Below are positions 13,636 through 36,681 of a stretch of DNA of 56,307 nt, in pieces. The notes under the pieces are model-generated. The model saw only the letters and a program-made list of their open reading frames with translations. It was not told where the DNA came from and searched no databases. The first letter of the stretch is position 1, and each line of letters begins with the position of its first letter. Location: contig JAFQTS010000002.1 of assembly GCA_017408915.1 (NCBI GenBank), forward strand, positions 1 through 56,307, read 5' to 3'. This stretch comes from Oscillospiraceae bacterium. Its GTDB lineage: Bacteria > Bacillota > Clostridia > Oscillospirales > Oscillospiraceae. A program made the translations under genes and the position numbers.

Positions 13636-13686
13636 GGCTGCGCCTCCTTTCGTCCGATACTGTGGAAATTCGCCCTACAATGGCGG

Positions 13687-13715
13687 TTGCACTTTTTTTG
13701 TGAGTGTAGTATACT
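13687..13715 (+). promoter_or_regulatory. murC promoter
   Basis: TTGCAC (13687-13692), 17-base spacer, TATACT (13710-13715). Its -10 overlaps that of the opposing cca promoter. Confidence 0.75.
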
Positions 13716-13736
13716 ATACTTTCGTAAGAAAAACAA
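13708..13736 (-). promoter_or_regulatory. cca promoter
   Basis: On the minus strand: TTGTTT (13731-13736), 17-base spacer, TATACT (13708-13713). The -10 box shares four bases with the murC -10. Confidence 0.65.
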
Positions 13737-13778
13737 TCGGCGGCGTGTCATTATGCCGCTTTTTTTGGAGGAACAGCC

Positions 13779-15164
13779 ATGAAACATCCTTCTGAGGATA
13801 TCATGAACTATATGAAGGCCGGCACTCGCGTCCACCTCTCCGGCATCGGCGGCGTGTCCATGTGCGCCCTCGCCGAGGTCTTGCAGGGTAGAGGTATGGA
13901 GGTGCAGGGCTCGGATATGATGGAGAGCGCTACGGTACAGCATCTTCGCTCTGTGGGCATCCCCGTCTCCATCGGCCACAGTGCCGACAACATCGGCGCT
14001 TGCGATGTGGTCATCCGCACCGCCGCCATCCGCGACTCCAACCCCGAGATTGCCGGCGCTGTGGCTCGCGGCATCCCCGTCTATGAGCGGGCGCAGGCTT
14101 GGGGCGCCATCATGCGGGGCTATGAAAATGCCCTCTGCATCTCCGGCACCCACGGGAAAACCACCACCACCTCTATGGCCACCCATATCTTTATGGCTGC
14201 CCACCGTGACCCCACCGTCATGATTGGCGGCACGCTGCCTCTCCTTGGCAAGGGCTACCGCGTAGGCAGCGGCGACACCATTATTTTGGAGAGCTGCGAG
14301 TATTGTAACTCCTTCTTAAGTTTCTATCCCACCGTGGCGGTGGTGCTGAACGTAGCCGCCGACCACTTGGATTTCTTCAAGGATTTGGCCGATATTCAGC
14401 ACTCCTTCCGCGCCTTTGCCGACCTCGTGCCCGACCGCGGCATGGTGGTCGCCAACTGGGACGATGAAGGCGTCCGCGCTACCTTCAAGGACTATACCCG
14501 CCCCCTCTGCCGCTGCAGCGTGAAGGATAAAACGGCGGAAGTCCATGCGGAGAACGTATCTTTCTTCGATGGTTTTGGCGACTTCGATGTCATCGCCGAG
14601 GGAAAGCACTATGCCCATGTCTCCCTCCGCGTCCCCGGCAGCCATAATGTTGCCAACGCATTGTGCGCCGCAGCCGCCGCCTATGTGCTGGGTGTGGATG
14701 GCAGCGCCGTGGAGCATGGCTTGAGTGAGTTCATCGGCGCAGGCCGCCGCTTTGAGTATAAGGGCGAGTTTAACGGCGCCAAGGTCTACGACGATTATGC
14801 CCATCACCCCGATGAGCTCCGCGCCCTTTTGAAGGCTGCCCGCAGCCTGCCCCACAAGCGCCTCATCTGCGCTTTCCAGCCCCATACCTACACCCGCACC
14901 GCCGCCCTCTTCGACGAGTTTGTCGCCGAGATGCGCAAGGCCGATGTAGCCATCGTCGCCGAGATTTACGCTGCCCGGGAGAAGAACGAGAGCGGCATCT
15001 CCTCCCGCGATTTGTGCGCCCACATCGAGGGCAGCCACTACTGCGCCACCTTGCAGCAGGTCACGGACACCTTGGCCGCTATCGTCCAGCCCGAGGACTT
15101 GGTGCTGACGGTGGGCGCAGGTGACATCTACCGCGCAGGGGAAGAACTGATTAAGAGAGGCTAA
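13779..15164 (+). CDS. murC: UDP-N-acetylmuramate--L-alanine ligase MurC
   Basis: Cytoplasmic ATP-dependent ligase that adds L-alanine to UDP-MurNAc in peptidoglycan synthesis. The 461-residue protein shows the N-terminal UDP-binding motif (SGIGGVSMCALAE), the Mur ligase P-loop GTHGKTTTT (123-131), the central segment AADHLDFF and the C-terminal YDDYAHHPDE motif. GGAGG lies before ATG 13779. The next gene starts 4 bases after its stop, so the two are co-transcribed. Confidence 0.96.
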   Translation: MKHPSEDIMNYMKAGTRVHLSGIGGVSMCALAEVLQGRGMEVQGSDMMESATVQHLRSVGIPVSIGHSADNIGACDVVIRTAAIRDSNPEIAGAVARGIPVYERAQAWGAIMRGYENALCISGTHGKTTTTSMATHIFMAAHRDPTVMIGGTLPLLGKGYRVGSGDTIILESCEYCNSFLSFYPTVAVVLNVAADHLDFFKDLADIQHSFRAFADLVPDRGMVVANWDDEGVRATFKDYTRPLCRCSVKDKTAEVHAENVSFFDGFGDFDVIAEGKHYAHVSLRVPGSHNVANALCAAAAAYVLGVDGSAVEHGLSEFIGAGRRFEYKGEFNGAKVYDDYAHHPDELRALLKAARSLPHKRLICAFQPHTYTRTAALFDEFVAEMRKADVAIVAEIYAAREKNESGISSRDLCAHIEGSHYCATLQQVTDTLAAIVQPEDLVLTVGAGDIYRAGEELIKRG

Positions 15165-21428: not shown

Positions 21429-21460
21429 GGGTCTCTCTGTTTTGCACAGAGAGACCCTTT
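21429..21460 (+). terminator. Intrinsic terminator after the phosphohexomutase
   Basis: A 12-bp perfect stem (gggtctctctgt / acagagagaccc), 5-base loop, short T-run. Confidence 0.88.
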
Positions 21461-21490
21461 CATTTTTGGCGCAAAGCCTACAAAAAAATC

Positions 21491-21519
21491 TTGCAAACAA
21501 ACAAAAATTCAGTTATAAT
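21491..21519 (+). promoter_or_regulatory. Promoter of the ssnA-ygfK operon
   Basis: TTGCAA (21491-21496), 17-base spacer, perfect TATAAT (21514-21519). Transcription should begin near 21526 and give a leader of about 168 bases before ssnA. Confidence 0.78.
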
Positions 21520-21525
21520 TTACCT

Positions 21526-21636
21526 AACAATCTAAGATTGGTAGCTGTAAGGAAGTGCTTCGCGCACGGGCTGCAACTATCACTCGGCCTGCGCTTGAGT
21601 GTTTCAAATCCACTATGGGGATTTGGAACATTTTTT
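21526..21636 (+). promoter_or_regulatory. Structured leader with intrinsic terminator upstream of ssnA (candidate cis-regulatory RNA)
   Basis: The leader can form a stem TGGTAG/CTATCA (21539-21544 / 21577-21582) that encloses a GTGC/GCAC hairpin, a stem CACTC/GAGTG (21581-21585 / 21597-21601), and a strong terminator at 21601-21636: an 11-bp stem (gtttcaaatcc / ggatttggaac, one G-T pair) followed by six T. The terminator lies about 58 bases before the start codon, so full-length mRNA requires read-through. I could not match it to a riboswitch class I know. Confidence 0.6.
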
Positions 21637-21693
21637 GTTATCGCCGTGGATAGGATGGAGATTGAAATTGAAACTTTGCAGGAGGTTACCATT

Positions 21694-23037
21694 ATGTATC
21701 TGTTGACTAACGGACGGCTCATCACCCGCGACAGTGAGGGCAAGGGCTATTATGAACACGGCGCCGTGGCCTTTGAGGGCACGAAAATCGTGGAGGTAGG
21801 GGAGGAAGCCGCGCTCCGCGCCAAGTACGCCGATGCAGAAGTCATTGATGCCCGCGGCGGCGTCATCATGCCCGCCTTTATTAACGCCCACACCCACATT
21901 TATTCCGCTTTGGCTCGGGGCTTAAGCATCGTGGGCAACAACCCCACCAATTTCTACGAGGTGCTGGACGGCACTTGGTGGGCTATGGATCGCAAGCTGA
22001 CCTTGGAGGGCAGCCGCGCCAGCGCCGATGCTCTCTACATCGACTGCATCAAGCAGGGCGTCACCACCATTTTCGACCACCACGCCGCCTATGCCGAGAT
22101 CCCCGGCTCCCTCTTTGAAATCGCCGAGAGCGCCAAGAAGTTCGGCATCCGCTCCTGCCTCTGCTACGAGGTCTCCGACCGTGACGGCGAGGAGAAGTGC
22201 TTGCAGGCCATTAAGGAGAACGCCGACTTCATCTCCTACTGCGAGAAGGAGAAAGATCCTATGTTGGCAGCCATGTTCGGCGGTCATGCCCTCTTCACCA
22301 TCTCCGACAAGACCTTCGAGCGGATGGTAGAGGCCAACGCAGGCCGCACCGGCTTCCACATCCACGTCTCCGAGGGTATGGACGATGTGTATGACTCTCT
22401 CCGCAACTACGGCTGCCGCCCCGTGAAGCGCCTCATGGATCACGGCATTTTGGGCGAGAAAACGGTGCTGGGTCACTGCATCCACGTCAACTCCGCCGAG
22501 ATCGACATTATTAAGGAAACGGGCACCATGGTGGTGAATAACCCCGAGTCCAATATGTCCAACGCCGTGGGTGTCTGCCCCGTGCTGCCCCTTTCCAAGG
22601 CAGGCATCACCGTGGGTCTCGGCACGGATGCTTGGACGAACGACATGGTGGAGTCCCTCAAGGCCGCCCTCTGCGTCCAGCGTCTCCACGCCTGCCTGCC
22701 CAACGTGGCATGGTGCGAGGTCACCGATATGCTCTTCCGCAACAACGCCAAGATCGCGGGCAAGTACTTCCCCGTGGAGCTGGGTGTGCTGAAGGCAGGC
22801 GCCGCCGCCGACATCATCGTCATGGATTATTATCCCTACACTCCCTTCTCTGACGAGAATATCGACGGTCACATCCTCTTTGGCATGACCGGAAAGCTCT
22901 GCCGCACCACCATCGGTAACGGCAAGGTGCTGATGAAGGATCGTGAGCTGGTGGGCATCGACGAACTGGCAGAGAATGCCCGCATCCTCGAAGTGTCCAA
23001 GAAGCTCTGGGGTTCTCTTAACAACAGAGTTTATTAA
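21694..23037 (+). CDS. ssnA: SsnA-family putative aminohydrolase
   Basis: Metal-dependent amidohydrolase of the TRZ/ATZ (deaminase) type. The 447-residue protein shows His66/His68 (NAHTH), His214 and Glu217 (HVSEG), His251/His254 (GHCIHV) and Asp302 (GTDAWTND), a complete mononuclear metal and acid-base set. SsnA is encoded with YgfK in E. coli and in gut anaerobes that degrade purines and uric acid; its exact substrate is debated. ATG 21694 has GGAGG at ideal spacing. The frame continues open upstream through the leader, but that part is not coding. ygfK follows after 32 bases. Confidence 0.93.
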   Translation: MYLLTNGRLITRDSEGKGYYEHGAVAFEGTKIVEVGEEAALRAKYADAEVIDARGGVIMPAFINAHTHIYSALARGLSIVGNNPTNFYEVLDGTWWAMDRKLTLEGSRASADALYIDCIKQGVTTIFDHHAAYAEIPGSLFEIAESAKKFGIRSCLCYEVSDRDGEEKCLQAIKENADFISYCEKEKDPMLAAMFGGHALFTISDKTFERMVEANAGRTGFHIHVSEGMDDVYDSLRNYGCRPVKRLMDHGILGEKTVLGHCIHVNSAEIDIIKETGTMVVNNPESNMSNAVGVCPVLPLSKAGITVGLGTDAWTNDMVESLKAALCVQRLHACLPNVAWCEVTDMLFRNNAKIAGKYFPVELGVLKAGAAADIIVMDYYPYTPFSDENIDGHILFGMTGKLCRTTIGNGKVLMKDRELVGIDELAENARILEVSKKLWGSLNNRVY

Positions 23038-23069
23038 AATAACGCAAGCCGAAAAAAGGAGGAACAAAT

Positions 23070-26024
23070 ATGTCTGAGAAAATGTATCCCATTCCCTTTT
23101 CCTCGTTGATGAACTGGGTGGTCACCGAGTACGCCACCGAGGGTAAGATCTTCGGTATCCAAAAGGTCTACCGCAGCAATGGCAAGAGCCTGCCCATCTT
23201 CGGCGAGCGTATCGAAACGCCTTTCGGCCCTGCCGCAGGCCCCAACAGCCAGCTGGCACAGAACATCATCGCCGCCTACGTTGCCGGTGCCCGCTTCTTC
23301 GAGGTCAAGACGGTGCAGAAGATGGACGGCGAAGAGCTGGCCGCCTGTGTGCCCCGCCCCTGCATCCTCGCCAATGACGAGGGCTACAATCAGGAGTGGT
23401 CTACGGAGCTGACGGTGCCGCAGGCTATGGACGAGTATATCAAGGCATGGTGCGCCTTGAAGGTCATGTCCAAGGTCTACGGTCTCGGCGACCCCGATGG
23501 TTTCGTGTTCAATATGTCCGTGGGCTATGACTTGGAGGGCATCAAGGGCGAGAAGGTGAACACCTACTTAGATGGCATGATGGATGCCAACAAGACCGCC
23601 ATTTTTGCCGAGTGCAAGGCGGTGTTGAAGGAGCTGTTCCCCGCCGAGAGCGACTATATTGACGCCATCTCTCCCCGCGTCTCCCGCTCCGTCACCGTCT
23701 CCACTCTCCACGGCTGTCCCCCCGATGAGATCGAGCGCATTGCCTCTTATCTGCTGACGGAGAAGGGTCTCCACACCTTCGTGAAGTGCAACCCCACCAT
23801 CCTCGGCTACGAGACGGCACGCCGTACCCTCGACAGCATGGGTTACGACTACATCGTCTTTGACGATCATCATTTCCGCGAGGATCTCCAGTGGGCCGAT
23901 GCTGTGCCCATGTTCGAGCGTCTGCAGGCGCTGGCTGACTCCCGCGGCCTCGAGTTCGGTCTGAAGCTTTCCAACACCTTCCCCGTGGATACTACCCGCG
24001 GCGAGCTGCCCAACAACGAGATGTATATGTCGGGCCGCTCCCTCTATCCCCTTACCATCGAGATGTGCCACCGCATCTCCCGCCAGTTCAAGGGCAAGAT
24101 GCGTATCTCCTTCGCCGGCGGCGCGGAGTACTTCAACTGCGACAAGCTCTTCGATGCCGGTATTTGGCCCATCACCGTGGCAACTACCATTTTGAAGTCC
24201 GGCGGCTACAATCGCCTCTATCAGATGGTGGAGAAGGTGGAGGAGATGCCCTACCGCGCATTCTGCGGCACGGACACCGAGGCTATTTGCGAACTCTCCA
24301 CCGCCTCTCACACCGACTATCACCATGTCAAGCCCATCAAGCCCATCCCCAAGCGGAAGAGTGAGAAGAAGGTGCCTTGGCTGGATTGCTTCTCCGCACC
24401 CTGTAAGGGCGGCTGCCCCATCGCACAGGATATCCCCGAGTACATCGAGCTGGTGAGCAAGGGACTGTACGGCCCTGCTCTGAAACTCATTACCGAGAAG
24501 AACCCTCTGCCCTTCATTACCGGCACTATCTGCTCCCACCGCTGCCAGAATAAGTGCTCCCGCAACTTCTATGACGAGTCCGTCCATATCCGCGATGCCA
24601 AGCTGGTTGCTGCGGAGAAGGGCTTCGAGACGGTGATGGCCTCCATGAAGCCCGCCAAGAAGGTGGCAGGGAAGAAGGCCGCCATCATCGGCGGCGGCCC
24701 CACCGGTATGTCTGCTGCCTACTTCCTCGCCCGCGGCGGCGTGGAGACCACCATCTTCGAGCGTGAGGCCACCCTCGGCGGCGTGCCCCGCCACGTGATC
24801 CCCTCTTTCCGCATTGCGGAGGAGACCATTGAGAAGGACATCGCCCTCATGGAAAAGCAGGGCGTGGAGGTACGCTGCGGCGCACCCGCACCCTCCGTTG
24901 CTGAGCTGAAGGCTATGGGCTACACCCACATCCTCTTCGCCGTTGGCGCATGGAAGGCCGGTCGCCTCGACATCGAGGGCGCCGTTGCCGGTGCCATCCA
25001 GTGGATGAAGGGTGTCAAGGCCGGCAATATCGCCGTTGCAGGTAGTGTCGCCGTGGTTGGCGCAGGCAACACCGCCATGGATGCCGCCCGCCTTGCCAAG
25101 CGCAGCGGTGCTGAGTCCGTCACCATCGTCTATCGCCGCACCAAGAAGTATATGCCCGCCGATGAGCACGAGCTGGCTCTCGCCATCGCCGACGGTGTCA
25201 ACTTCGCCGAGCTTGCCGCTCCCGTGAAGCAGGCCGACGGCCTCCTCACCTGCGAAAGAATGGTGCTGGGCGAGGCAGATGCCAGCGGTCGCCGCAGCCC
25301 CGTGGGTACGGGTGAGTACTTCACCATCCCCTGCGACTTGGTGATCTCCGCCGTTGGTGAGCAGGTGGACGATGCCCTGCTGGGTGCAAACGGCGTGGAG
25401 CTGGATAAGAAGGGTCGCCCCGCCTTCAAGACCAACGTGGAGGGTGTCTACGCCGCAGGCGACGCTATGCGGGGCCCCGCCACCGTGGTGGAGGGTATTG
25501 CCGACGCCGCCGCTTTCGCAGAAGTCGTCCTCGGCGCACCTCATGTCTATGAGATCCCCGCCGCCGCCTACACCACCATCGCCGATGCAAGCGACAAGAA
25601 GGGCGTCCTCCGTATGGCAGGCTATCCCTGCCGCGAGTCCGAGCGCTGCCTCCAGTGCGCCACCGTCTGCGAGAACTGCGTGGATTCCTGCCCCAACCGC
25701 GCCAACATCGCCATCGCCATGGCTGACGGCAAGCATCAGATCCTCCATGTGGATAAGATGTGCAACGAGTGCGGCAACTGCACCCAGTTCTGCCCCTATG
25801 ACTCCGCCCCCAGTCTTGATAAGTTCACCCTCTTCCAGACGGCAGAGGATATGGTGGATTCCAAGAACGCAGGCGTGCTGTTCCTCGGCGGCGACAAGGT
25901 GCGCGTCCGTCTCTTTGGCGAGCCCAAGGACTACGACCTCTCCGACAGCAAAAACGGTCTGCCTGCCGACCTTGAGGTCTTTATCCTCCGCATCCGCGAT
26001 CAGTACAGCTATCTCTACAAGTAA
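23070..26024 (+). CDS. ygfK: YgfK-type oxidoreductase (putative selenate reductase subunit YgfK)
   Basis: A 984-residue flavin and iron-sulfur protein. The N-terminal part (about 1-430) resembles the dihydroorotate/dihydropyrimidine dehydrogenase barrel (FGPAAGPNSQLAQNI, HGCPPDEIERI). A GltD-like section follows, with a Cys set from residue 440 (Cys440, 445, 449 and later), an FAD-binding GGGPTG near 541-546, an NAD(P)-binding GAGNT near 664-668, and AAGD of the FAD C-terminus. The C-terminus has two [4Fe-4S] motifs (Cys860, 863, 867, 870, 874 and Cys898, 901, 904, 908). The domain order suggests NAD(P)H-linked reduction of a heterocycle. The name refers to a proposed selenate role; in gut anaerobes the gene belongs to uric-acid/purine degradation. 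Confidence 0.93.
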   Translation: MSEKMYPIPFSSLMNWVVTEYATEGKIFGIQKVYRSNGKSLPIFGERIETPFGPAAGPNSQLAQNIIAAYVAGARFFEVKTVQKMDGEELAACVPRPCILANDEGYNQEWSTELTVPQAMDEYIKAWCALKVMSKVYGLGDPDGFVFNMSVGYDLEGIKGEKVNTYLDGMMDANKTAIFAECKAVLKELFPAESDYIDAISPRVSRSVTVSTLHGCPPDEIERIASYLLTEKGLHTFVKCNPTILGYETARRTLDSMGYDYIVFDDHHFREDLQWADAVPMFERLQALADSRGLEFGLKLSNTFPVDTTRGELPNNEMYMSGRSLYPLTIEMCHRISRQFKGKMRISFAGGAEYFNCDKLFDAGIWPITVATTILKSGGYNRLYQMVEKVEEMPYRAFCGTDTEAICELSTASHTDYHHVKPIKPIPKRKSEKKVPWLDCFSAPCKGGCPIAQDIPEYIELVSKGLYGPALKLITEKNPLPFITGTICSHRCQNKCSRNFYDESVHIRDAKLVAAEKGFETVMASMKPAKKVAGKKAAIIGGGPTGMSAAYFLARGGVETTIFEREATLGGVPRHVIPSFRIAEETIEKDIALMEKQGVEVRCGAPAPSVAELKAMGYTHILFAVGAWKAGRLDIEGAVAGAIQWMKGVKAGNIAVAGSVAVVGAGNTAMDAARLAKRSGAESVTIVYRRTKKYMPADEHELALAIADGVNFAELAAPVKQADGLLTCERMVLGEADASGRRSPVGTGEYFTIPCDLVISAVGEQVDDALLGANGVELDKKGRPAFKTNVEGVYAAGDAMRGPATVVEGIADAAAFAEVVLGAPHVYEIPAAAYTTIADASDKKGVLRMAGYPCRESERCLQCATVCENCVDSCPNRANIAIAMADGKHQILHVDKMCNECGNCTQFCPYDSAPSLDKFTLFQTAEDMVDSKNAGVLFLGGDKVRVRLFGEPKDYDLSDSKNGLPADLEVFILRIRDQYSYLYK

Positions 26025-27393: not shown

Positions 27394-29340
27394 TCAGAAA
27401 ACTGTCAAGATCATGACGCACAGAGCGATGCAAAGACCAAGACAAGTCATCAATAGTGCGAAGGACAAAGAGCCCGTGAAGCGGGACACCACATCTTTGC
27501 GCGTGGCGGTGATGTCGGCGTGGCGCTGGGCGCTCTCGTCGCCGAAGCGGGAGAACATCCGCACCAAGCGGGGATAGGGGTCGGTCTTGACCTTCGCTCT
27601 GCTATCCCGTAGCACCGTTTTACGCACTGCCAGAATAAGGAGGTCGGGAATGTCGCACACAAGGCGGCACAGGACATGGATGACGGCGAACAATGCGCGG
27701 AAGAAGGGCTTATACACGCTGTCTTCCAAGCTGAGCCACTTGGGCCACACGCTGCGGTAAGTGCCATCCTTGGCAATCAGCACCTTGCGGATAAAGAGGC
27801 AATAGACCACCGCTGCAATGCACAGGGAGATGACCACGCCCTTGAGGTTCACCCACGCAAGGTAGTGCACCTCATGGTGGAAGGGATGACCGCCCGTAAA
27901 GTCGAGGGTCAGACCGCTGAGCTTCTCCGCCAGCACATGGGGAGTGAGGCCGATGACGGGCAGCGTCACCGCGGCGATGCACAGTGCTGCCTTGCTAAGA
28001 GGCGTACCCCAAGACTTGCCGAAGTCCTTACCCTTCTGCCAAAAGACCGCCACGTAGATTTTGGTGAGATACGCCGCCGTCAGACCGCCGGAGAAGAGGA
28101 ACAGCCACTCCACCGCCGTAATCGTCCACAGATGGCTATGGTGTGCGTACTCCACGATGGCCTCATGCACCAGCGTCTTGCTGATATAGCCGCAGAAACC
28201 AGGGATACCCGCAAGGGAACAAGCACCGCTGAGGAAAATCACGTGGAGCAAGGGCTTTCCACGACCGAAACCGCGAATGTCGTTGAGGTCGAGGGCGTGG
28301 GTGTTAAAGTACACCACACCGGCAAAGAGGAAGAGCACCAGCTTTACCAGCGAGTGATTCATCATGTACAGCACCGAGCCGTTGGCAGCCAAGGCGTTTT
28401 CCTCGCCCAGCAGGCAAATCATGGAGATGCCCACGGTGATGAAGCCAATCTGGGAGAGGGAGGAGCAGGCGAGGATGTACTTGAGGTTGGTGGAGAACAC
28501 GGCAATCACCGCGCCCAGCACCATGGTGATAGCACCCAGCACCAGCAGGATGTAGCCCCATGTGGCCTCGCCCACGAGAATCTGCGCCGTAATGGTGAGG
28601 ACACCGAAGATACCCGCCTTAGTCAGCACGCCCGAGAGGAGGGCAGAAGCAGGCGCGGGAGCAACAGGGTGTGCCTTAGGCAGCCAGATGTGCAAGGGGA
28701 AGAGACCTGCCTTGGCGGCAAAGCCAAAGAAGATGCAGAGGGCTGCCGCCCACAGCTTGTCACGCTCCGCAGTAGCCATGCAGGCCTCGCGAAGTTCGCT
28801 GACCAGCAGCGTACCCGTCACATTATGGAGCAGGAACAGGCCCATCAGCGTCACAAGGCCGCCCAGCACCGCAATGGTGAGGTACGTCTTGCCCGCATCC
28901 ATCGCGCCCTCCGTCTCCTCCTGGGCCACCCACACGTACGAGCCGATGGACATCATCTCGAAGAACATAAAGGTGGTGTAGAGGTGAGCGGACAGGAACA
29001 CGCCTACGGTGGAGCTGAGGCAGAGCAGGAAGAAGAAGTAATACCGCCCCAAATTATGGTGATGGCGGAAATACTGGGGCGACAGCATGGCGGCCACAAA
29101 CCACATGAAGCACACCACGATGCCGTAGAGGCAGCGGAAACCATCCAGCGCCACCGTGAGGTGGACGATGGGCAGCGTATACACACCGCCAAAGCCGCTG
29201 ACTGCGGCGATAATCATGCCGAGTAGCGTTGCGCCCGTGGCGATGACCGCCCACAGACCCAGCGCCTTTTCACCCCGCTTTGCGAGGTACACGGTGGCGA
29301 GAGCTGCAAGGACAGGGAAGAAAATCACAAACCATACCAT
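27394..29340 (-). CDS. Proton-conducting antiporter subunit, ND5/NuoL-like, with C-terminal extension (fourth ND subunit)
   Basis: A 648-residue membrane protein of the Mrp/NuoL/HyfB superfamily. It has the conserved TM5 glutamate (Glu128 in MFFEMMS), the TM7 lysine (Lys210 in FAAKAGLFPLHIWLPKAHPVAPAP) and a further lysine at 241, so the channel half looks functional. About 150 extra C-terminal residues contain further helices, as in HyfB/NuoL-like proteins. It is the last gene of the operon, and its start overlaps the upstream stop by one base. It is one of four such channel subunits here. Confidence 0.88.
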   Translation of the reverse strand: MVWFVIFFPVLAALATVYLAKRGEKALGLWAVIATGATLLGMIIAAVSGFGGVYTLPIVHLTVALDGFRCLYGIVVCFMWFVAAMLSPQYFRHHHNLGRYYFFFLLCLSSTVGVFLSAHLYTTFMFFEMMSIGSYVWVAQEETEGAMDAGKTYLTIAVLGGLVTLMGLFLLHNVTGTLLVSELREACMATAERDKLWAAALCIFFGFAAKAGLFPLHIWLPKAHPVAPAPASALLSGVLTKAGIFGVLTITAQILVGEATWGYILLVLGAITMVLGAVIAVFSTNLKYILACSSLSQIGFITVGISMICLLGEENALAANGSVLYMMNHSLVKLVLFLFAGVVYFNTHALDLNDIRGFGRGKPLLHVIFLSGACSLAGIPGFCGYISKTLVHEAIVEYAHHSHLWTITAVEWLFLFSGGLTAAYLTKIYVAVFWQKGKDFGKSWGTPLSKAALCIAAVTLPVIGLTPHVLAEKLSGLTLDFTGGHPFHHEVHYLAWVNLKGVVISLCIAAVVYCLFIRKVLIAKDGTYRSVWPKWLSLEDSVYKPFFRALFAVIHVLCRLVCDIPDLLILAVRKTVLRDSRAKVKTDPYPRLVRMFSRFGDESAQRHADITATRKDVVSRFTGSLSFALLMTCLGLCIALCVMILTVF

Positions 29341-30797
29341 TACAGCATCACCGCCTCTCTAATAATGTCAAGGAGCCATTGCGGGAACAAGCCCATCAGC
29401 AGACACGCCGCCGCGAGAATGAGGATGGGCACCGTCATCATAGGCCCTGCCTCATGGGCGCTGCCCGCTTCAATGGCAGGCACATCCTTGGCGGGGAACC
29501 ACGCCTTAATGACCACTTGGAACATGTAAATCGCCGTCAGCAGCGCGGAAATGAGGACGCCCACAAAGCCGAGGGTGGCCCAAATGCTGCCCTCGCCCAT
29601 AGCGGACAGAGCAATGTACCACTTGCTGACAAAGCCGTTGAAGGGAGGGATACCCGTCAAGGCGCAGGCCGCCGCCGTAAAGGCAGCAAACGTCAAAGGC
29701 ATCCGCTTGGCAAGGCCGTCCAATTCATGGACATACTCGCGGTGGGCATAGTGGAGCACGCTGCCCGCGCAGAAGAAGGCCATGATTTTCACCACCGAGT
29801 GGACGATGAGATGCACCCACGAGGCCACCAAGCCCTCGGGCGTCATCAAGGCACAGGCAAAGAGGATGTAGGAGAGGTTAGAGACGGTGGAGTAGGCCAA
29901 GCGGTGCTTGAAGTGTGTCTGCTTCAGCGCCATAGCCGAGCCGAACACCAGCGTAATGATGGCGAGGCACATGACCACATACTGTCCCCACGTACCGCGG
30001 AGCACATCCACGCCGAAAGCGTAGTACACCAAGCGGATACAGGCGAAAGCGCCCGCCTTGACCACTGCCACCGCGTGGAGAAGTGCCGTCACGGGAGTGG
30101 GGGCAACTGCCGCCGTAGGCAGCCAGCTGTGCATAGGCCAAATAGCGGCCTTGACACCGCAGCCCACAAAGGCGAGGGAGAACACCGTCAGCAACACCGT
30201 CATGTTGCCATTGAAATTGGCGAAATGACCGCCGAGGACGAAGTCCTGTGCATCGTTGACGATGAGATATACCAATCCCACGAAGGCCAGCGCCGCGCCC
30301 GCAATGGAGTAGAGGGCGTATTTGATACCTGCGGCAATGGCTTTTTTGTGCATGGCGTGCATGACAAGGGGAATGGTGGACAGGGTCAGCAGCTCATAGA
30401 AGAGGTACATGGTCACCATGTTGGAGGCGGTGGCGATACCCAGCGTAATGCCGAAGGATGCCGTAAAGAACGCCCAGAACATGGGAAGATGTCCCTCATG
30501 CTTCATGTAGTCCCACGCATACACCGTGGTGAAGGGCCACAGGGTAGCCGAAAGTCCTACAAACAGCTTTGCCGCACCATCCATGCGGAGGGAGAAAATA
30601 AGGTTGTCGGTGAAGGAGAAGAGCACCACCTTCTCCTCGCTGCAGGTGAGGATGGCCAGCCAGCCGATGATGGTGGTAGCGAAGATGGCGCAGCTGCAGA
30701 AGATGCGCCGCGTCTTTTCGCTCAGGGGCAGCACATAGGAGGCGATACCTGCCACGATGGGCAGAAGCACCGCGAGAATCAGTAATAGTCCGTTCAT
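29340..30797 (-). CDS. Proton-conducting antiporter subunit, ND4/MrpD-like (third ND subunit)
   Basis: A 485-residue membrane protein with about 14 helices. It keeps Glu135 (YLFYELLTLS), Lys216 (GVKAAIWPMHSWLP) and Lys247, the residues that line the ion path in Mrp and complex I antiporter-like subunits. It starts 12 bases after the preceding gene, with a GGAGG site. The motif around the TM7 lysine (AAVAPTPVTALLHAVAVVKAG) is closest to the ND5/MrpA-type pattern. Whether H+, Na+ or both are moved is not readable. Confidence 0.88.
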   Translation of the reverse strand: MNGLLLILAVLLPIVAGIASYVLPLSEKTRRIFCSCAIFATTIIGWLAILTCSEEKVVLFSFTDNLIFSLRMDGAAKLFVGLSATLWPFTTVYAWDYMKHEGHLPMFWAFFTASFGITLGIATASNMVTMYLFYELLTLSTIPLVMHAMHKKAIAAGIKYALYSIAGAALAFVGLVYLIVNDAQDFVLGGHFANFNGNMTVLLTVFSLAFVGCGVKAAIWPMHSWLPTAAVAPTPVTALLHAVAVVKAGAFACIRLVYYAFGVDVLRGTWGQYVVMCLAIITLVFGSAMALKQTHFKHRLAYSTVSNLSYILFACALMTPEGLVASWVHLIVHSVVKIMAFFCAGSVLHYAHREYVHELDGLAKRMPLTFAAFTAAACALTGIPPFNGFVSKWYIALSAMGEGSIWATLGFVGVLISALLTAIYMFQVVIKAWFPAKDVPAIEAGSAHEAGPMMTVPILILAAACLLMGLFPQWLLDIIREAVML

Positions 30798-30809
30798 GCA
30801 GCCACCTCC

Positions 30810-32267
30810 TTACATCAGACTCTCGGCAATCGAGAGGATTGTCGAGACCACGCCGTTGTGGAAAAGACCCAGCAGCAAAACTGCTGCGGAGAACATAACC
30901 AACGACAGCATCATGGCAGGAGGTTCATGCACTCGCTGGACCGGAGGATGATCCTTGCCGGGGAAGAAGGCCTGCACAATCGGTGCGAAGAGATAATAGG
31001 CCGTAAACAGTGCCGAGGCCAACAAAACGGCGGGGATCACATAACCCATTGCATCGGGGAAAGCATCCAGTGCGCCGATGGCCAGATACCACTTGCTGTG
31101 GAAGCCGCCGAAGGGCGGGATACCCACCAGAGAAAGGGACAGCAGCGTAAAGCAGAGCAGAGTGGTAGGCAGCCGCTTTCCCAAAGCGGGAAAACCGTCG
31201 ATGGTTTCCGTCTCCGTCAGGTAGATGATAGCTCCTGCCGACTGGAACACGCCAATCTTTGCCACGGCGTGGAACATCAACTGCAGTAGCGCACCTGCCA
31301 GACCCAACGGCGTCATGATAAAGACACCGAGGAGAACATAGGAGATCTGAGAAATACTGGAATAGGCCAGACGTTTTTTCAGTCCGTTCTCCGTGCAACC
31401 CATAAACGAACCCATGAAGATAGTCACCAGAGCCAGTACGATAAAAGTTGTCTGCAACCACGAACCCTGCAGCAACTCTACACCTACGATGCAGTAGATA
31501 ATGCGGATCACGGCCACAGCACCGACCTTGGCGATAATGCCGCTGAGTAGGGCGTGGGCGGGAGCCGGTGCCACGGGGTGGGCAGAGGGCAGCCAGTTGT
31601 GAAGGGGGAACAGACCTGCCTTGGCGCTGAAGCCGAGGATCATCAGGAAGATAGCCAGCATCATTGTGGGGGTCAGGTCTCCTGCCGTAAGATGGCCGCC
31701 TGCGGTGAAGGTAAGGGAGGCGTTGCTTGCCAGCACCGCCATACCGAACAGTGCTACAAAAGCACCGCCCACAGAATAGTACAGATATTTGGTAGCACCC
31801 AACAGTGCCTTGTGCGTCTGGGAGTGGAGCACTAGCGGGAAGGACAGAAGGGAGGTCAGCTCAAAGAACAGGTACAGCGTTACCAGATCCGCCGCCAGTG
31901 CAGAACCCAGCACCATGCTCTCCGTCAGGAAGAGAAAGGCATAGAAGCGCGGTTCTTTTCCCTCATGTTTCATATACACATAAGCATACAGGATCGTCAG
32001 CAGCCAACACACCGCTGTCAGCAGGCAGAAGAAACCGCCCAACTTATCCATCATCAGAGAAAAGGAAAGACTCTCGGTGAAATATAGGGGCGCTGTCGAC
32101 AGTTCCTGATCACCGCAAACGGCAATCAGCGTGACGATAAGAGTGATTGCCTGTACTGCCAGCATGAAGGCGGTTTGCTTTTTGCTGCCGCCGGGTTTGA
32201 AAAACATGCAACCCAACCCTAAGAGTGCGGGAAGAAGGACAATAACGTACAATATCATGTTGCGCAT
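30810..32267 (-). CDS. Proton-conducting antiporter subunit, ND4/MrpD-like (second ND subunit)
   Basis: A 485-residue paralogue with Glu136 (YLFFELTSLLS), Lys217 (SAKAGLFPLHNWLPSAHPVAPAP) and Lys248. The TM7-8 region is nearly identical in pattern to that of the fourth ND subunit, which suggests a relatively recent duplication within the operon or shared constraint. ATG 32267 follows AAAGGAG. Its GC content is slightly lower than that of its neighbours. Confidence 0.88.
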   Translation of the reverse strand: MRNMILYVIVLLPALLGLGCMFFKPGGSKKQTAFMLAVQAITLIVTLIAVCGDQELSTAPLYFTESLSFSLMMDKLGGFFCLLTAVCWLLTILYAYVYMKHEGKEPRFYAFLFLTESMVLGSALAADLVTLYLFFELTSLLSFPLVLHSQTHKALLGATKYLYYSVGGAFVALFGMAVLASNASLTFTAGGHLTAGDLTPTMMLAIFLMILGFSAKAGLFPLHNWLPSAHPVAPAPAHALLSGIIAKVGAVAVIRIIYCIVGVELLQGSWLQTTFIVLALVTIFMGSFMGCTENGLKKRLAYSSISQISYVLLGVFIMTPLGLAGALLQLMFHAVAKIGVFQSAGAIIYLTETETIDGFPALGKRLPTTLLCFTLLSLSLVGIPPFGGFHSKWYLAIGALDAFPDAMGYVIPAVLLASALFTAYYLFAPIVQAFFPGKDHPPVQRVHEPPAMMLSLVMFSAAVLLLGLFHNGVVSTILSIAESLM

Positions 32268-32278
32268 GTCTCCTTTCC

Positions 32279-33772
32279 TTAATACTTCACAAACAGGGCA
32301 AGACCCTGCTCAATGAGACGGGTGAGGGGTGCAGAGTAGATACCGATTGCCATGGCAATGATAAGCAGCACCACGGCGGGAACATAGTGGCAGGGACAGC
32401 GCTTTTCGCCGCGATAGCCCACGCCCTCTTTCTCCGGCAGCCACAGCACCATGGAGGTATAGAGGAAATAGCCCACGTTCAGCACCGTGGAGATGGCAAG
32501 ACCCAACAGCACAGGCCACTGCTGCCAGTCGAGAGCAAAGGCGGCGGAGGCGAAGTGGAGCTTGGGGATAAAGCCGATAAACAGGGGGATACCCACCATG
32601 CTGAGAGAACCTGCGGTGAAGAGGACACCTGCCATCACATCGCGGTGACCTGCGCCGCGGAGGGCGTGGAACTCGTTCTCGCCGCCGGAGGCATCTGCCA
32701 AGTCAGCGCCGGCAAGGAACAGCATAGGCTTGGTAAGAGAGTGGGCGAAGATGTGGAGGATGGCCGCCAAGAGGGCAGCGTCCGTCCCCATGCCCAGACC
32801 CATGTAGATGTAGCCGATCTGTGCGGCGGAGGAGTAGGCCACCATGGTGGTGAGGCGCTTGGTGCGGATGGCGGAAATAGAACCTACGATCATGCCGCCG
32901 ATACCGAACACCAACAGTACCGCCTGAATACCGCTCTCGGTGAACACCTCAATGCCCACCGCGCGATAGATGATTTTAATCAGCAGGAAGATGTATCCCT
33001 TGGACACCACGCCGGAGAGGATACCGGAGGAGGCAGGGGTGGCCTGTCCGTAGGTATCGGGCATCCAGAAGTGGAAGGGGAAGAGACCGGACTTGATGGC
33101 GATACCTGCCGTCATGAGACCGATGGCCGCCGTCATGGAGAAGGTGTATCTGCCGTCAGCCCACACTGCCGCCACTGCCTCGTGGAGCTGGGGGAACAGC
33201 AGGTGACCCGTCACGGAATAGGTCAGCACCACGCCAATGAGGAACAGACCCGAGCCGATAAGGGCGAAGATCATGTAACGGGCCGAGGCGATGAGGGTGC
33301 GCCCGTTCTGCTTGGCAGAGAGGAGGACGCAGGAGCCGATGGTGCAGATCTCGATAAACACGTAGCCCGTGAAAATATCGTTGGTGTAGCAAAGAGCCAG
33401 CAGGGAGACCAGCGTCATGTCCACGTTGATCCAGTACACCTTGCGGTGATCCTGCACATCCGCCATAATGTGCCCCATGCCGCCCAGCACAGAGCAGAGC
33501 ATCACCACGGAGAACAAGGTCGCCATCAGCGGCTCCATAACGCCCGCCATGATCTCGTTACCCCACGGGGCGGGATAATGACCCATCATGTAGGAATAGC
33601 TCATGTCATTGGAAGCGCAGAACCACAGGACGCTGGCATTCAGCGCCACGGAGACACACAGCAGGGCAACGCTCAAACGCCGACCCCATTTGTCGCCTGC
33701 CACGAAGGTACTTACGGCGCAGAGGAGGCAGAGAATGATGGTAAAGAAGGGGAAGTTTTGCACGAAGCTCAT
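32279..33772 (-). CDS. mrpD: Proton-conducting antiporter subunit, MrpD/MbhH-like (first ND subunit)
   Basis: A 497-residue ND4-like protein. It carries Glu141 (YVFIEICTIGS), Lys227 (AIKSGLFPFHFWMPDTYGQATPASSG) and Lys258. The DTYGQA version of the TM7-8 loop and its position directly after the MrpC-like gene (ATGA overlap) match MrpD and MbhH in other antiporter modules. Confidence 0.88.
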   Translation of the reverse strand: MSFVQNFPFFTIILCLLCAVSTFVAGDKWGRRLSVALLCVSVALNASVLWFCASNDMSYSYMMGHYPAPWGNEIMAGVMEPLMATLFSVVMLCSVLGGMGHIMADVQDHRKVYWINVDMTLVSLLALCYTNDIFTGYVFIEICTIGSCVLLSAKQNGRTLIASARYMIFALIGSGLFLIGVVLTYSVTGHLLFPQLHEAVAAVWADGRYTFSMTAAIGLMTAGIAIKSGLFPFHFWMPDTYGQATPASSGILSGVVSKGYIFLLIKIIYRAVGIEVFTESGIQAVLLVFGIGGMIVGSISAIRTKRLTTMVAYSSAAQIGYIYMGLGMGTDAALLAAILHIFAHSLTKPMLFLAGADLADASGGENEFHALRGAGHRDVMAGVLFTAGSLSMVGIPLFIGFIPKLHFASAAFALDWQQWPVLLGLAISTVLNVGYFLYTSMVLWLPEKEGVGYRGEKRCPCHYVPAVVLLIIAMAIGIYSAPLTRLIEQGLALFVKY

Positions 33773-34164
33773 ACGCGCCCTCCCTTCCGCTTTTCAGACA
33801 TCATGAGGTACAGCGCGTCCATATCCAGCGTATGGTACTCGCGGTAGATGCGCACCGTCAGCGACAGCATCACCGCCGACACGCTCACCGACACAACGAT
33901 GCCCGTCAGCACAAGACCTGCGGGAATGGGGTTAATGTAGTAGCTTGCATCGGTGATGCCATCGGTAATGATGTTTGCCATGCGCCCTGCGATATAGCCG
34001 CGGTCAGCCAGCAGCAGGAACACGCCTGTGTCCATAATGTCGAGACCGAGAACTTTTTTCAGCAGATTGCGGTCAAAGAGGAGCATGCAGAAGCCGATGC
34101 AGAAGAGGATGACGGACACGCACTCTTCGTAGTTGTGCAAAAGGTTTTGGAACATGCCGTTCAT
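33769..34164 (-). CDS. mrpC: MrpC/NuoK-like antiporter subunit
   Basis: A 131-residue protein with three transmembrane helices in the NuoK/MrpC pattern; the third (PIPAGLVLTGIVVSVSVSAVML) matches the family signature. It is one base after the MrpB-like stop and overlaps the next start by 4 bases. Its middle loop is longer than in typical MrpC. Confidence 0.85.
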   Translation of the reverse strand: MNGMFQNLLHNYEECVSVILFCIGFCMLLFDRNLLKKVLGLDIMDTGVFLLLADRGYIAGRMANIITDGITDASYYINPIPAGLVLTGIVVSVSVSAVMLSLTVRIYREYHTLDMDALYLMMSEKRKGGRV

Positions 34165-34165
34165 C

Positions 34166-35062
34166 TTACAGCTCCCCCCTTCTGAAGTACATATAGAAGC
34201 TATACATGGTGCAGCACACCACGAAGCCCACCGCCACGTTCAGCGGCAGAATAAGACCTGCCGAGAAGATGCGGCCCGGCGTACCGGGAGAGATGATGGA
34301 GTGGATGTGGTTGGCGCCTGTGAAGAAGGAATAGGTCTTGGAACAGGCGTAGAAAGCCAAGGCGCAGAGGGTGATAAGGGAGATGGCCTTCTTGGGGATG
34401 GTTCTCGATGCCTTATCCTCGCCCCACACGATGGCGTAGATAATGAGGGCCGAGGCCATGATAGCGCCGCCGGAGAAGCCGCCGCCGGGGGAGATGTGAC
34501 CGTTCAGCACCACGTAGATACCGAACATCAAAATGATGGGGATCACCAGCTTGCACACGGTGCGGACAATGGGGTCGTTGTCATAGCGCACCACTTCCGC
34601 CTCGAACACATGCTCTTCTTTCTTCTTGCCGGGGGCAGCGCACATGAGGAGGGTCACGGCGCAGGTGGCGGTAAACAGCACGAAGCTCTCGCCCAGCGTA
34701 TCGAAGGCGCGGTAGTCGAGGATCATGCCCGCCACGGAGTTGACAGCGCCCGTCTCTTCCATGCCCTGCTCCACATAGCGCTGGGGCACTTCGTTGACAG
34801 TGGGGGCATCGGCTGCGCCGTACTGGGGCAGGTTACCGATGACCAGCAGCATAAACAGGGCAAAGACGATGCACAACACCGTCACCGCCGCGCGGTAGCC
34901 GGTGCGGCTGCGGCGCAGGGTGCGGATGGCAACGTGCTTGTTCTCCTTAGGCTCGTAGGGTACAGCCTCTTCGGGGGTGGGATAGACGGGCTCGGCGAGG
35001 AGGGCGGAGAACTCCACTTCGCCCCGCAGCCAGCGGCGCAGGAAGGTGTCTTTTTTATTCAT
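34166..35062 (-). CDS. mrpB: Fused MbhE-MrpB-like antiporter subunit
   Basis: A 298-residue protein that appears to join two subunits. The N-terminal part has a soluble segment (residues 1-45), a helix (about 56-75) and a periplasmic segment with NEVPQRYVEQGMEETGAVN and ILDYRAFDTLGES, as in MbhE or the end of MrpA. The C-terminal half (about 160-298) is MrpB-like, with NGHISPGGGFSGGAI. ATG 35062 has AGGAGGG; the frame stays open a little upstream with no good start. It overlaps the upstream gene by 8 bases. Confidence 0.82.
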   Translation of the reverse strand: MNKKDTFLRRWLRGEVEFSALLAEPVYPTPEEAVPYEPKENKHVAIRTLRRSRTGYRAAVTVLCIVFALFMLLVIGNLPQYGAADAPTVNEVPQRYVEQGMEETGAVNSVAGMILDYRAFDTLGESFVLFTATCAVTLLMCAAPGKKKEEHVFEAEVVRYDNDPIVRTVCKLVIPIILMFGIYVVLNGHISPGGGFSGGAIMASALIIYAIVWGEDKASRTIPKKAISLITLCALAFYACSKTYSFFTGANHIHSIISPGTPGRIFSAGLILPLNVAVGFVVCCTMYSFYMYFRRGEL

Positions 35063-35339
35063 GTTCACCCTCCTGTTCCTCGTCTTTTTTCTTCTTCTGG
35101 TCGCGGTCAATGAGGTTCAGCTGCCGCAACGTGAGGAAGAAGAGAATGGAGGTAACGCCTGCACCCACGGCGGCCTCGGTAATGGCCAAGTCGGGGGACT
35201 CCAGCAAGATCCACACCACCGACATGATGACAGAGTAGGCCATGTAGATGATGACGGCCTGCATAGGCTTTTTCGTGCAGGCGGTGGCGATGGCGCACAC
35301 CAAAAGGCCTGTCAGCAGTAAAATGCGGAAAATTGTCAC
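35055..35339 (-). CDS. MbhD-like (DUF4040) antiporter subunit
   Basis: A 94-residue protein with three helices and the motif ESPDLAITEAAVGAG, characteristic of MbhD and of the C-terminal part of MrpA. Here it is a separate gene, as in archaeal membrane-bound hydrogenases, instead of being fused to a long MrpA. It overlaps the MrpG gene by ATGA. Confidence 0.85.
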   Translation of the reverse strand: MTIFRILLLTGLLVCAIATACTKKPMQAVIIYMAYSVIMSVVWILLESPDLAITEAAVGAGVTSILFFLTLRQLNLIDRDQKKKKDEEQEGEHE

Positions 35340-35707
35340 TGTGCCGCCACCTCCTCCGTGTCGGATTCCTGTCGGAACTGTGCCTGCGACAGGTCGATAT
35401 GTTCTGCCAAATGTTCATCGGCATGGTACTCGAACTGTGCCAGCATATGGCTCGACAAAGGCGAGGTGAGCCACTGGAGCACCAGCACCAGCACCAGCTT
35501 CAGGGCCACCACGTTCCAGCCCACGGCGATGACGAGACCCAGCACAAAGAGGAAGAGGCTGAGAGTATCGCCCATGGCGGCGGAGTGGATGCGGTTGAGG
35601 GCAAAGTCAAAGCGGTACAGGCCAAGGATCGCTACGATCATGGTGAACATACCGCCCAGCATACAAAGGGCAACGAGGATAAAGCGAAGCCACTCAAGAA
35701 ACATCAT
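35336..35707 (-). CDS. mrpG: MrpG-like antiporter subunit
   Basis: A 123-residue membrane protein with three helices and the family landmarks GLYRFDFALNRIHSAAMGDTL and TSPLSSHMLA. A soluble acidic tail of about 30 residues follows. It overlaps the MrpF gene by 14 bases. Confidence 0.88.
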   Translation of the reverse strand: MMFLEWLRFILVALCMLGGMFTMIVAILGLYRFDFALNRIHSAAMGDTLSLFLFVLGLVIAVGWNVVALKLVLVLVLQWLTSPLSSHMLAQFEYHADEHLAEHIDLSQAQFRQESDTEEVAAQ

Positions 35708-36002
35708 CTTTCTGCTCCTCCTTTCGCCGATTGTAGAGGTTAATATAGATGCGGCACAGCATCATCACGGCGATGAAGGACATGACCACGTAGATGATGG
35801 CGATGTCCGCCAAATAGCCCTCGTTGAACGTCCGCGTCAGCACGCAGATGATGATAGAGACGATGGTGCCAATGAGGTTGATGCCGATAATGCGATCCAC
35901 CGTGAGGTGAGAGCGGATGATATACACCAGCAACGCCAGCACGCACAGCGCCAATACCACCAGCGTCACGGTGAACAAAATGTTGTAGGCCTGTTCGATC
36001 AC
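35694..36002 (-). CDS. mrpF: MrpF-like antiporter subunit
   Basis: A 102-residue, three-helix protein with the conserved VDRIIGINLIGT and LADIAIIYVVMSFI segments of MrpF. It overlaps mrpE by ATGA. Confidence 0.88.
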   Translation of the reverse strand: MIEQAYNILFTVTLVVLALCVLALLVYIIRSHLTVDRIIGINLIGTIVSIIICVLTRTFNEGYLADIAIIYVVMSFIAVMMLCRIYINLYNRRKEEQKDDVS

Positions 36003-36475
36003 TTCTCCATCGCCTCCTCTACTTTTCTAAGATACTTTACCAGCGACCAATCGGGGATACTCTGGGCATCGTCCTTGTTGAGGCACAAGACCAGATATTC
36101 GTCCCCCTCTTGGGACACGGTGACGGTGCCGGGAGTGAGGGTGATGGAGTTGCTGAGGAACACCCTCGAAATATTCTCCTTCAGCGGCACGCGCAGCCGC
36201 ACGATACCGGGCTCATAGTGATGGGGCTTTTTCAAGATCACCCGCAGCACCGCCATGTTGGCCTTGAAGATCTCCCACACCAGCATCACCACATACACCG
36301 CGTACATGGCGAGGCGCCGCAGGATCCGCCGCTCGTGCTTGGGATGATAACCCAGCGCATAGACGCAGAAAGCGTAGATCGCCGCCGTCAGCACCACGCC
36401 GATAAGGCAGATCTCCACCGTCACCCGTCCGTTCAGCACGAGCCAGAGAAGGAATAAGAAAATACACATGACCAT
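35999..36475 (-). CDS. mrpE: MrpE-like antiporter subunit
   Basis: A 158-residue first subunit of the operon, with N-terminal helices and a cytoplasmic C-terminal domain (VRLRVPLKENISRVFLSNSITLTPGTVTV) typical of MrpE. Of two close ATG codons, 36475 fits the GAGG site best. Confidence 0.9.
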   Translation of the reverse strand: MVMCIFLFLLWLVLNGRVTVEICLIGVVLTAAIYAFCVYALGYHPKHERRILRRLAMYAVYVVMLVWEIFKANMAVLRVILKKPHHYEPGIVRLRVPLKENISRVFLSNSITLTPGTVTVSQEGDEYLVLCLNKDDAQSIPDWSLVKYLRKVEEAMEK

Positions 36476-36551: not shown

Positions 36552-36580
36552 ATTCTATCATAAACACCCCTCTTTCGCAA
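36552..36580 (-). promoter_or_regulatory. Promoter of the Mrp-like operon
   Basis: On the minus strand: TTGCGA (36575-36580), 17-base spacer, TAGAAT (36552-36557), about 75 bases before mrpE. Confidence 0.65.
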
Positions 36581-36648: not shown

Positions 36649-36681
36649 AAAAAAGGCCTCCGCCCATGTAGGGCAGAGGCC
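36649..36681 (-). terminator. Terminator after the SdpI-like gene
   Basis: An 11-bp stem with one mismatch (ggcctccgccc / gggcagaggcc) and a T-run on the minus strand. Confidence 0.82.

Follow-up and report, generated by a model that had tools for sequence, protein, structure and literature searches.

The ten tightly packed open reading frames at positions 27394-36475 on the minus strand of a 56,307-nucleotide stretch of DNA from an Oscillospiraceae bacterium (GCA_017408915.1, JAFQTS010000002.1; this whole stretch is called the window below) combine the small subunits of an Mrp-type antiporter with four ND-type channel subunits. The locus thus raises the question of whether its product works on its own or as the membrane arm of a redox-driven pump. 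How far-apart proton channels are coupled to each other and to the driving force is a central dispute for complex I and its relatives.

In the present work, we examine the gene content and order of the operon, its conservation, its residues and the descent of its ND genes. We will show that the ten-gene four-ND cluster is real and conserved, and not a one-off. In our view, the operon quite probably encodes one stand-alone, lengthened Mrp (CPA3) cation/H+ antiporter that operates without electron transfer. We favour this reading because the same ten genes are conserved with their channel and cation-path residues kept, because NuoB, NuoD and NuoH were not found in the 78% complete assembly of the organism, nor NuoD and NuoH in all but one of the carriers, and because that one carrier has both the four-ND operon and a separate cluster like that of the membrane-bound [NiFe] hydrogenase (MBH).

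Gene content and relation to known systems

The genes are read from 36475 down to 27394, and the proteins of the four ND (Proton_antipo_M) genes, ND1 to ND4, are called N1 to N4:

35999..36475, minus strand: MrpE (MNHE), Pfam PF01899, 1.7e-28
35694..36002, minus strand: MrpF, Pfam PF04066, 8.2e-9; Asn at the classic Mrp D35f position
35336..35707, minus strand: MrpG, Pfam PF03334, 1.4e-18
35055..35339, minus strand: MbhD, the C-terminal part of MrpA as a separate gene, Pfam PF13244, 2.1e-20
34166..35062, minus strand: MbhE-MrpB fusion, MnhB PF04039 (6e-27) and MbhE PF20501 (2.5e-6) in one reading frame, open from TTG 35110
33769..34164, minus strand: MrpC, NuoK-like, Pfam PF00420 (Oxidored_q2), 8.1e-21
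32279..33772, minus strand: ND1 (N1), 497 residues, PF00361, 3e-39; expected neighbour of MrpC in the complex
30810..32267, minus strand: ND2 (N2), middle subunit, duplicate a, 485 residues, PF00361, 1.3e-54
29340..30797, minus strand: ND3 (N3), middle subunit, duplicate b, 485 residues, PF00361, 1.9e-55
27394..29340, minus strand: ND4 (N4), 648 residues, PF00361, 1.6e-53; NuoL/MrpA-like architecture

The Pfam matches of all ten proteins are above cut-off and confirm the gene order read in an earlier, sequence-only note on this DNA, called the original prediction below. That note had described the genes as overlapping, which holds for six of the nine junctions (by 1 to 14 bp), while the other three are gaps of 1 to 12 bp; these counts presuppose that the MbhE-MrpB gene starts at ATG 35062 and not at TTG 35110. 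The assembly (1.85 Mb) has no PF00361 matches other than these four ND genes.

With MrpB, C, E, F and G families in one cluster, the operon belongs to the Mrp/CPA3 (group 3) systems in the broad sense. The MrpA equivalent is divided among three proteins: ND4, MbhD and, within the fusion, the MbhE half. N1 to N3 are further, MrpD-like ND subunits, and none of the ten identified genes is a redox gene. The subunit families, the channel residues and most of the presumed cation-path residues are common to the operon and the classic seven-gene Mrp/Mnh (groups 1, 2, CPA3). The layout, however, is not that of classic Mrp (groups 1 and 2), which has one long MrpA and one MrpD in six or seven genes; here there are ten genes in another order, with a split MrpA, four ND subunits instead of two, and Asn in place of MrpF D35.

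Close in layout is the three-ND Mrp of Peptoclostridium acidaminophilum (EAL2_RS12435-12475), Rhizobium rosettiformans and Halomontanus rarus, which likewise has the order E-F-G-MbhD/E-B-C followed by the ND genes, and likewise no directly adjoining redox genes. It differs in having one middle ND where there are two here, and in Peptoclostridium MbhE and MrpB are separate genes rather than fused. With MBH (in Pyrococcus, and in the MBH-like cluster on contig C30 of the related genome G015) the operon shares the gene order of the small subunits, as had been predicted, and the Asp in MrpC, but it has no hydrogenase or NuoH-like genes and four ND subunits where MBH has one. The nuo complex I of Sinorhizobium meliloti pSymA also has four ND subunits, the first of which (Da) falls in the N2/N3 clade, but it is redox-driven and its NuoA, C, D and E genes adjoin. 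In 2018, Chadwick et al. reportedly described complex I with a duplicated NuoM or an extra antiporter-like subunit.

The original prediction gave two as the number of such subunits in known Mrp, which is too narrow, as three-ND clusters are on record. In a 2017 review (PMC5703873), Mrp systems are sorted into three groups, and the group 3 example from Microbacterium, mrpFGBCDDAE, has two mrpD and one mrpA. A Nitrospira group 3 Mrp locus (PMC7784846) has NuoM- and NuoL-like genes downstream of mrpD. Three or more ND subunits beside Mrp genes are therefore already known. For a four-ND Mrp we found no paper, judging from titles and the openings of abstracts, with most subscription papers outside reach, and the passages of PMC12361115 that we read contain nothing on it.

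Distribution and conservation

A panel of 80 genomes, consisting of the organism's own genome and 79 relatives, was searched with ND1 (G and L numbers below denote genomes and loci). Matches were found in 22 of them, and the ten-gene set is present in 16, namely the own genome and 15 relatives, which answers the proposed check for the same order in related genomes. The order is uninterrupted in 14 of the 15, and in G047 the set is split over two contigs. G040, G050 and G052 gave one weak match each, and longer stretches of these three were left out. Since 10 of the 31 other genomes of the same genus carry the set, its presence is patchy. It is also not common across the class, as an even draw of 147 members (own genome included) gave 10 matches at E 1e-60. 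Eight of the other nine matches were resolved: G122 and G216 have the same four-ND type, G194, G204, G140 and G113 have three ND subunits, and G195 and G128 have a different four-ND set; G089 was left out of this assignment.

A scan of the contigs of named genomes with an alignment of 14 ND1 proteins gave at least 598 stretches, 564 of which were confirmed, and the best 80 of these 564 were examined. In 70 of the 80, N1-N2-N3-N4 are in tandem, and the other 10 end at a contig edge within 518 bp. No other gene order was seen among the 80, with two exceptions: L110, a short fragment at a contig end labelled N3 by best match, and L129, where the MrpC match is in two pieces. The record titles of these loci name Clostridia or unclassified bacteria, several with gut sites (rectum, colon, cecum, rumen) and a few without. 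The carriers among them include Hungatella hathewayi, Coprococcus catus, Butyricicoccus pullicaecorum, Fusibacillus kribbianus and Candidatus Blautia equi.

Channel and cation-path residues

The channel residues of the four ND subunits are E141, K227, K258, K348 and K404 in N1; E136, K216, K247, K337 and K392 in N2; E135, K216, K247, K337 and K392 in N3; and E128, K210, K241, K333 and K388 in N4. The first two of each set are the Glu of transmembrane helix (TM) 5 and the Lys of TM7, which had been predicted for all four proteins and are indeed present in all of them.

In alignments of 90 N1, 87 N2, 85 N3 and 77 N4 sequences, window included, the residues are kept with few exceptions. The TM5 Glu occurs in 90/90 N1, 87/87 N2, 85/85 N3 and 74/77 N4 sequences, the three remaining N4 rows being gapped. 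The Lys residues of TM7, TM11 (NuoL K342 position) and TM12 and the His at the NuoL H338 position are kept in every N1 to N4 sequence, and the TM8 Lys everywhere except in 3 of 85 N3. Incomplete or odd-length proteins were left out of these counts and of those for the cation path below, and so were L035, L040, L041 and L042, which are the same contigs as L067, L064, L065 and L066; L151 is the same contig as L080. For comparison, E. coli NuoM carries a Glu at TM12, and the TM11 Lys is missing from both NuoM and NuoN. That N2 and N3 both appear fully equipped argues that neither is a mere spacer. Some multi-ND relatives have a different channel residue in the alignment: Ala takes the place of the TM5 Glu in R. 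rosettiformans ND3, and Asn that of the TM7 Lys in both S. meliloti Db and Halomontanus ND3 (coordinates of the deviating relatives: L144:9419-11107, L145:9621-11381, L150:12460-14256).

Of the four subunits, only ND4 is long enough for an end cap, with 648 residues versus 485-497 for N1 to N3, a comparison of lengths since only N4 was modelled. Its AlphaFold2 model (mean predicted local distance difference test score 89.4) has TM15, a long helix at 538-575 and a final TM helix, and it aligns to MrpA and NuoL up to residue 561-585, that is, through TM15 and the long helix.

The Na+ path residues of Mrp and MBH were taken from PMC7419157. Their presumed counterparts were located here through motifs and alignment rather than through the residue numbering of solved structures; the counts include the window. 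The Pro of the MrpE TLTPGT motif (taken as P114e) is found in 79/80 sequences and the MrpG Pro (taken as P86g) in 83/84. The Glu of the TEAAVG motif of MbhD is present in 83/83, and the MbhE half of the fusion has its Asp in 82/84 and its Glu in 84/84. In MrpC, the Asp is found in 84/86 and also in the MBH reference, and D29 of MrpF is kept in 79/82.

Descent of the ND genes

In a tree of 84 rows, N1, N2, N3 and N4 form four clades with support of 98 to 100 in the Shimodaira-Hasegawa-like approximate likelihood ratio test (SH-aLRT). N1 groups with the first ND of the Peptoclostridium three-ND Mrp, and N4 with the last ND of Peptoclostridium and of R. rosettiformans, the latter being a long branch; by sequence, N4 lies outside the MnhA/NuoL group. 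N2 and N3 group with the middle ND of three-ND Mrp and with one ND of the S. meliloti pSymA complex I. In a more careful tree with additional three-ND rows, they are sisters (bootstrap 100, SH-aLRT 99) beside the middle subunits of Clostridia. The four-ND form therefore goes back to a three-ND Mrp whose middle subunit was duplicated in tandem. The tree against known ND proteins that the original prediction had proposed thus gives four separate clades with an affinity to three-ND Mrp.

A single origin of all four-ND clusters was also considered and was rejected by approximately unbiased (AU) tests on the third ND of G195 and G128. Its union with N2+N3 has p 0.011, with N3 alone 0.002 and with N2 alone 0.003, values that are to be read with a long branch in mind, with groups named after the tree had been seen and with one of the two copies read as 417 residues only. 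The extra ND of these two genomes retains all five channel residues checked. A fourth channel was thus probably added to three-channel forms on at least two occasions. In the four-ND Mrp of G195 and G128 (L157, L158), the last ND has 745-766 residues and a Glu replaces the Lys at the TM11 position.

Weighing of the alternatives

We now turn our attention to the observations that count against a stand-alone antiporter, which concern the cation path, the protein models and the assembly, the number of complexes and the redox proteins related to or encoded near some of the loci.

The first point is MrpF, where the position of D35, mapped by motif spacing, is Asn in 82/82 sequences. In the Mrp structure paper, D35 is termed invariably conserved, the D35L exchange inactivated the Anoxybacillus flavithermus Mrp, and earlier Glu and Asn substitutions in Bacillus subtilis Mrp did severe harm to function with E. 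coli as the expression host, but not in B. subtilis itself (PMC7419157). The Asn therefore means that the cation path is altered. The position is also Asn in Peptoclostridium and in the haloarchaeon Halomontanus, Gln in R. rosettiformans, and Asp in Staphylococcus aureus Mnh2, Pseudosulfitobacter Mrp and the MBH-like cluster of G015, so that, within the references compared, the change marks the multi-ND branch. In addition, both of the classic Mrp references have Gln in the column of the MbhD Glu, which makes it uncertain whether this Glu corresponds to E69/E706. The ion and its entry route may thus differ from those of classic Mrp.

The second point concerns the models and the assembly. The NCBIfam names agree with those of Pfam, but none of the ten proteins reaches a displayed NCBIfam cut-off, which places the set outside the curated models. 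The own assembly has a completeness of 78%.

Third, that all four ND subunits belong to one complex is inferred from the operon. The operon might instead supply two separate antiporters that share the small subunits, with no four-ND complex. The Mrp entries among solved structures have two ND chains, A and D, and N2 and N3 are duplicates by descent, both of which would suit this arrangement. MrpC and MbhD/E, however, are single-copy, each of N1 to N4 forms a clade of its own, their order is the same in all 70 loci that extend as far as N4, and N4 is the sole ND with the length of an end cap. We regard two antiporters as improbable.

The last point is the possibility of a redox partner. In this reading, the operon would provide only the membrane arm of a redox pump, and the electron-transfer part, encoded at another site, would dock onto it. 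In sequence, the solved structures nearest to N1 and N4 are indeed subunits of redox complexes, namely the MBS ND 6u8y_H for N1 (6.5e-38) and MbhH 6cfw_H for N4 (2e-46), and the MBH-like gene order points in the same direction. Rnf genes lie divergent from mrpE, at a distance of 220 to 370 bases, in six loci (L068-L073), out of 105 scanned, of which five are second copies of a contig. One of the six, L071, ends at a contig edge. NCBIfam confirms rnfC, D, E, A and B in L070, where the open reading frame at the rnfG position has no match at 1e-20. A quick N1 tree, which came with long-branch warnings, puts the Rnf-flanked loci together with the genus of the window in a single group of 17 rows, and it is possible that an older Rnf neighbourhood was lost in the window's lineage. 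Finally, in 5 of the 10 other same-genus carriers (G003, G022, G024, G026, G031) a [FeFe] hydrogenase A6 and a GltD-like protein are encoded 0.4 to 1.8 kb downstream of ND4, with a trkH homologue between in four. In the window, G005 and G021, ackA occupies this place. The A6 hydrogenase is NADH-dependent; the pair is located at L040:2429-5994 and L041:3660-7300, and at the same place in G022, G024 and G026.

Against such docking, the own assembly gave no match to NuoD (PF00346), NuoH/MbhM (PF00146) or NuoB (PF01058). At its 78% completeness it thus shows neither the set of MBH and other energy-converting NiFe hydrogenases nor that of respiratory complex I, where NuoB was sought in the own genome only and NuoC and NuoI were not searched on their own. 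In the panel, NuoD and NuoH are above cut-off in only 4 of 80 genomes (G013, G015, G035, G050), and both are absent from 15 of the 16 carriers, including G008, which is 100% complete in two contigs. Rnf, for its part, has its own membrane subunits. A protein of the RnfD family occurs in 75 of the 80 genomes, whether or not they carry the operon; these include the own genome and 14 of the 15 other carriers. The [FeFe] hydrogenase (E 1e-150), although present in all 10 other same-genus carriers, also occurs in 14 of the 21 genomes of the genus that lack the operon, and it flanks the operon in only 4 of the best 80 loci. We consider a docking partner very unlikely.

It is important to point out that the exception, G015, carries NuoD and NuoH in its MBH-like [NiFe] hydrogenase cluster on another contig than the four-ND operon, while G013 has an MBH-like cluster and no four-ND match. 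The other subunits of the G015 cluster (L051:3526-14362) were named from reading frames, and a late one at 13298-14362 holds near-identical tandem ferredoxin-like repeats. In the flanks of the best 80 loci, no homologue of its large subunit, small subunit or MbhM was found at 1e-10. The operon might also be a decayed MBH that lost its hydrogenase half, as the common order of the small subunits and the relation of N4 to MbhH would suggest. The presence of both clusters in G015 speaks against this, as do the grouping of the ND subunits with three-ND Mrp and not with the one MbhH included in the trees, and the intact set across many lineages. Such decay is highly improbable and, of all the alternatives considered, the least credible.

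A constant redox partner was thus rejected by the searches for NuoD, NuoH, the RnfD family and [FeFe] hydrogenase in the 80 genomes, for NuoB in the own genome, and by clustering of the flanking reading frames. The clustering covered 76 loci (L068-L143), 57 of them with more than 1.5 kb upstream and 56 downstream, and gave no constant neighbour family and none in more than six loci, Rnf being among those at six. The original prediction had asked for a constantly co-occurring module, and none was found; some sister genomes do have redox genes next to the operon, either Rnf or [FeFe] hydrogenase, but these are not constant neighbours and do not belong to the NuoB/D/H type. It had left two readings, of which the large stand-alone antiporter is supported and docking with a distant redox partner is not. 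In our judgement, which is not a test, the Rnf and hydrogenase pattern fits a shared energy physiology via ion gradients better than docking.

Proposed mechanism

For the stand-alone antiporter, we infer a single complex that performs antiport, and we likewise infer its ion and stoichiometry. The cargo traded for protons is most likely sodium or potassium. N1 would be placed against MrpC and the cation module (MrpE, F, G, MbhD, MbhE-MrpB and MrpC), N2 and N3 would follow in the row, and N4 would cap the far end with its long lateral-type helix. Protons would pass each ND via a chain of Glu and Lys residues, and charge changes would travel along the row and couple, at the N1/MrpC/MbhD junction, to one Na+ (or K+) path. 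Four proton channels per cation path would move more H+ per cation than the two-channel Mrp, and a weak proton gradient could then power cation export. In the reverse mode, a Na+ gradient, for example from Rnf, could set the pH and the proton gradient.

A more general idea, which we put forward tentatively and regard as possible rather than probable, is that redox-free Mrp antiporters make up a natural series of increasing length, with two, three or four proton channels serving a single cation path, and that their four-channel form evolved at least twice in Clostridia by an added middle subunit, each channel raising the H+/cation ratio. It would be a redox-free Na+/H+ gear for weakly energised anaerobes. 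A comparison of Mrp complexes that have two, three or four channels on the same cation module, and no redox part, would let one ask directly whether each channel moves one proton per cycle and whether coupling is passed on along the row. Cultured species such as Hungatella hathewayi and Coprococcus catus have the four-channel form, which makes it testable.

Neighbouring genes and transcription signals

The upstream neighbours of the operon are a 215-residue reading frame, which has no NCBIfam match but looks like SdpI on inspection, and an ArsR regulator of the SdpR type; ackA lies downstream, followed by ygfK on the opposite strand. The predicted lack of adjoining redox genes holds in the window for hydrogenase and NuoB/D/H-type genes, none of which adjoins the operon, but ygfK, a soluble oxidoreductase-type protein and thus another kind of redox gene, is one gene away. 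Two sites lie before mrpE:

36552..36580, minus strand: weak promoter-like site, 9/12 matches, with TG ahead of the second hexamer
36655..36681, minus strand: terminator-like hairpin of 11 pairs with a T run after it, located between mrpE and the gene before it

A further promoter-like site (27382-27354, 11/12 matches) lies between ND4 and ackA if ackA starts at Met 27284. The region has 5 promoter-like sites versus 5.5 expected by chance, and 12 terminator-like sites versus 9.3 expected; as the promoter-like count is at chance level, the promoter and hairpin sites are hints only.

In the own genome, the rotor subunit of a V-type ATPase (L159, G000 C8, 1489-1914) has a Thr-Gln pair and a late Glu, which we take to resemble the motif of Na+-binding rotors. 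Adjoining ackA in the window are ssnA and ygfK (21442-26024), both named for a putative selenium-linked enzyme set, and an 8-oxoguanine deaminase-like gene is found at 53849-55204.

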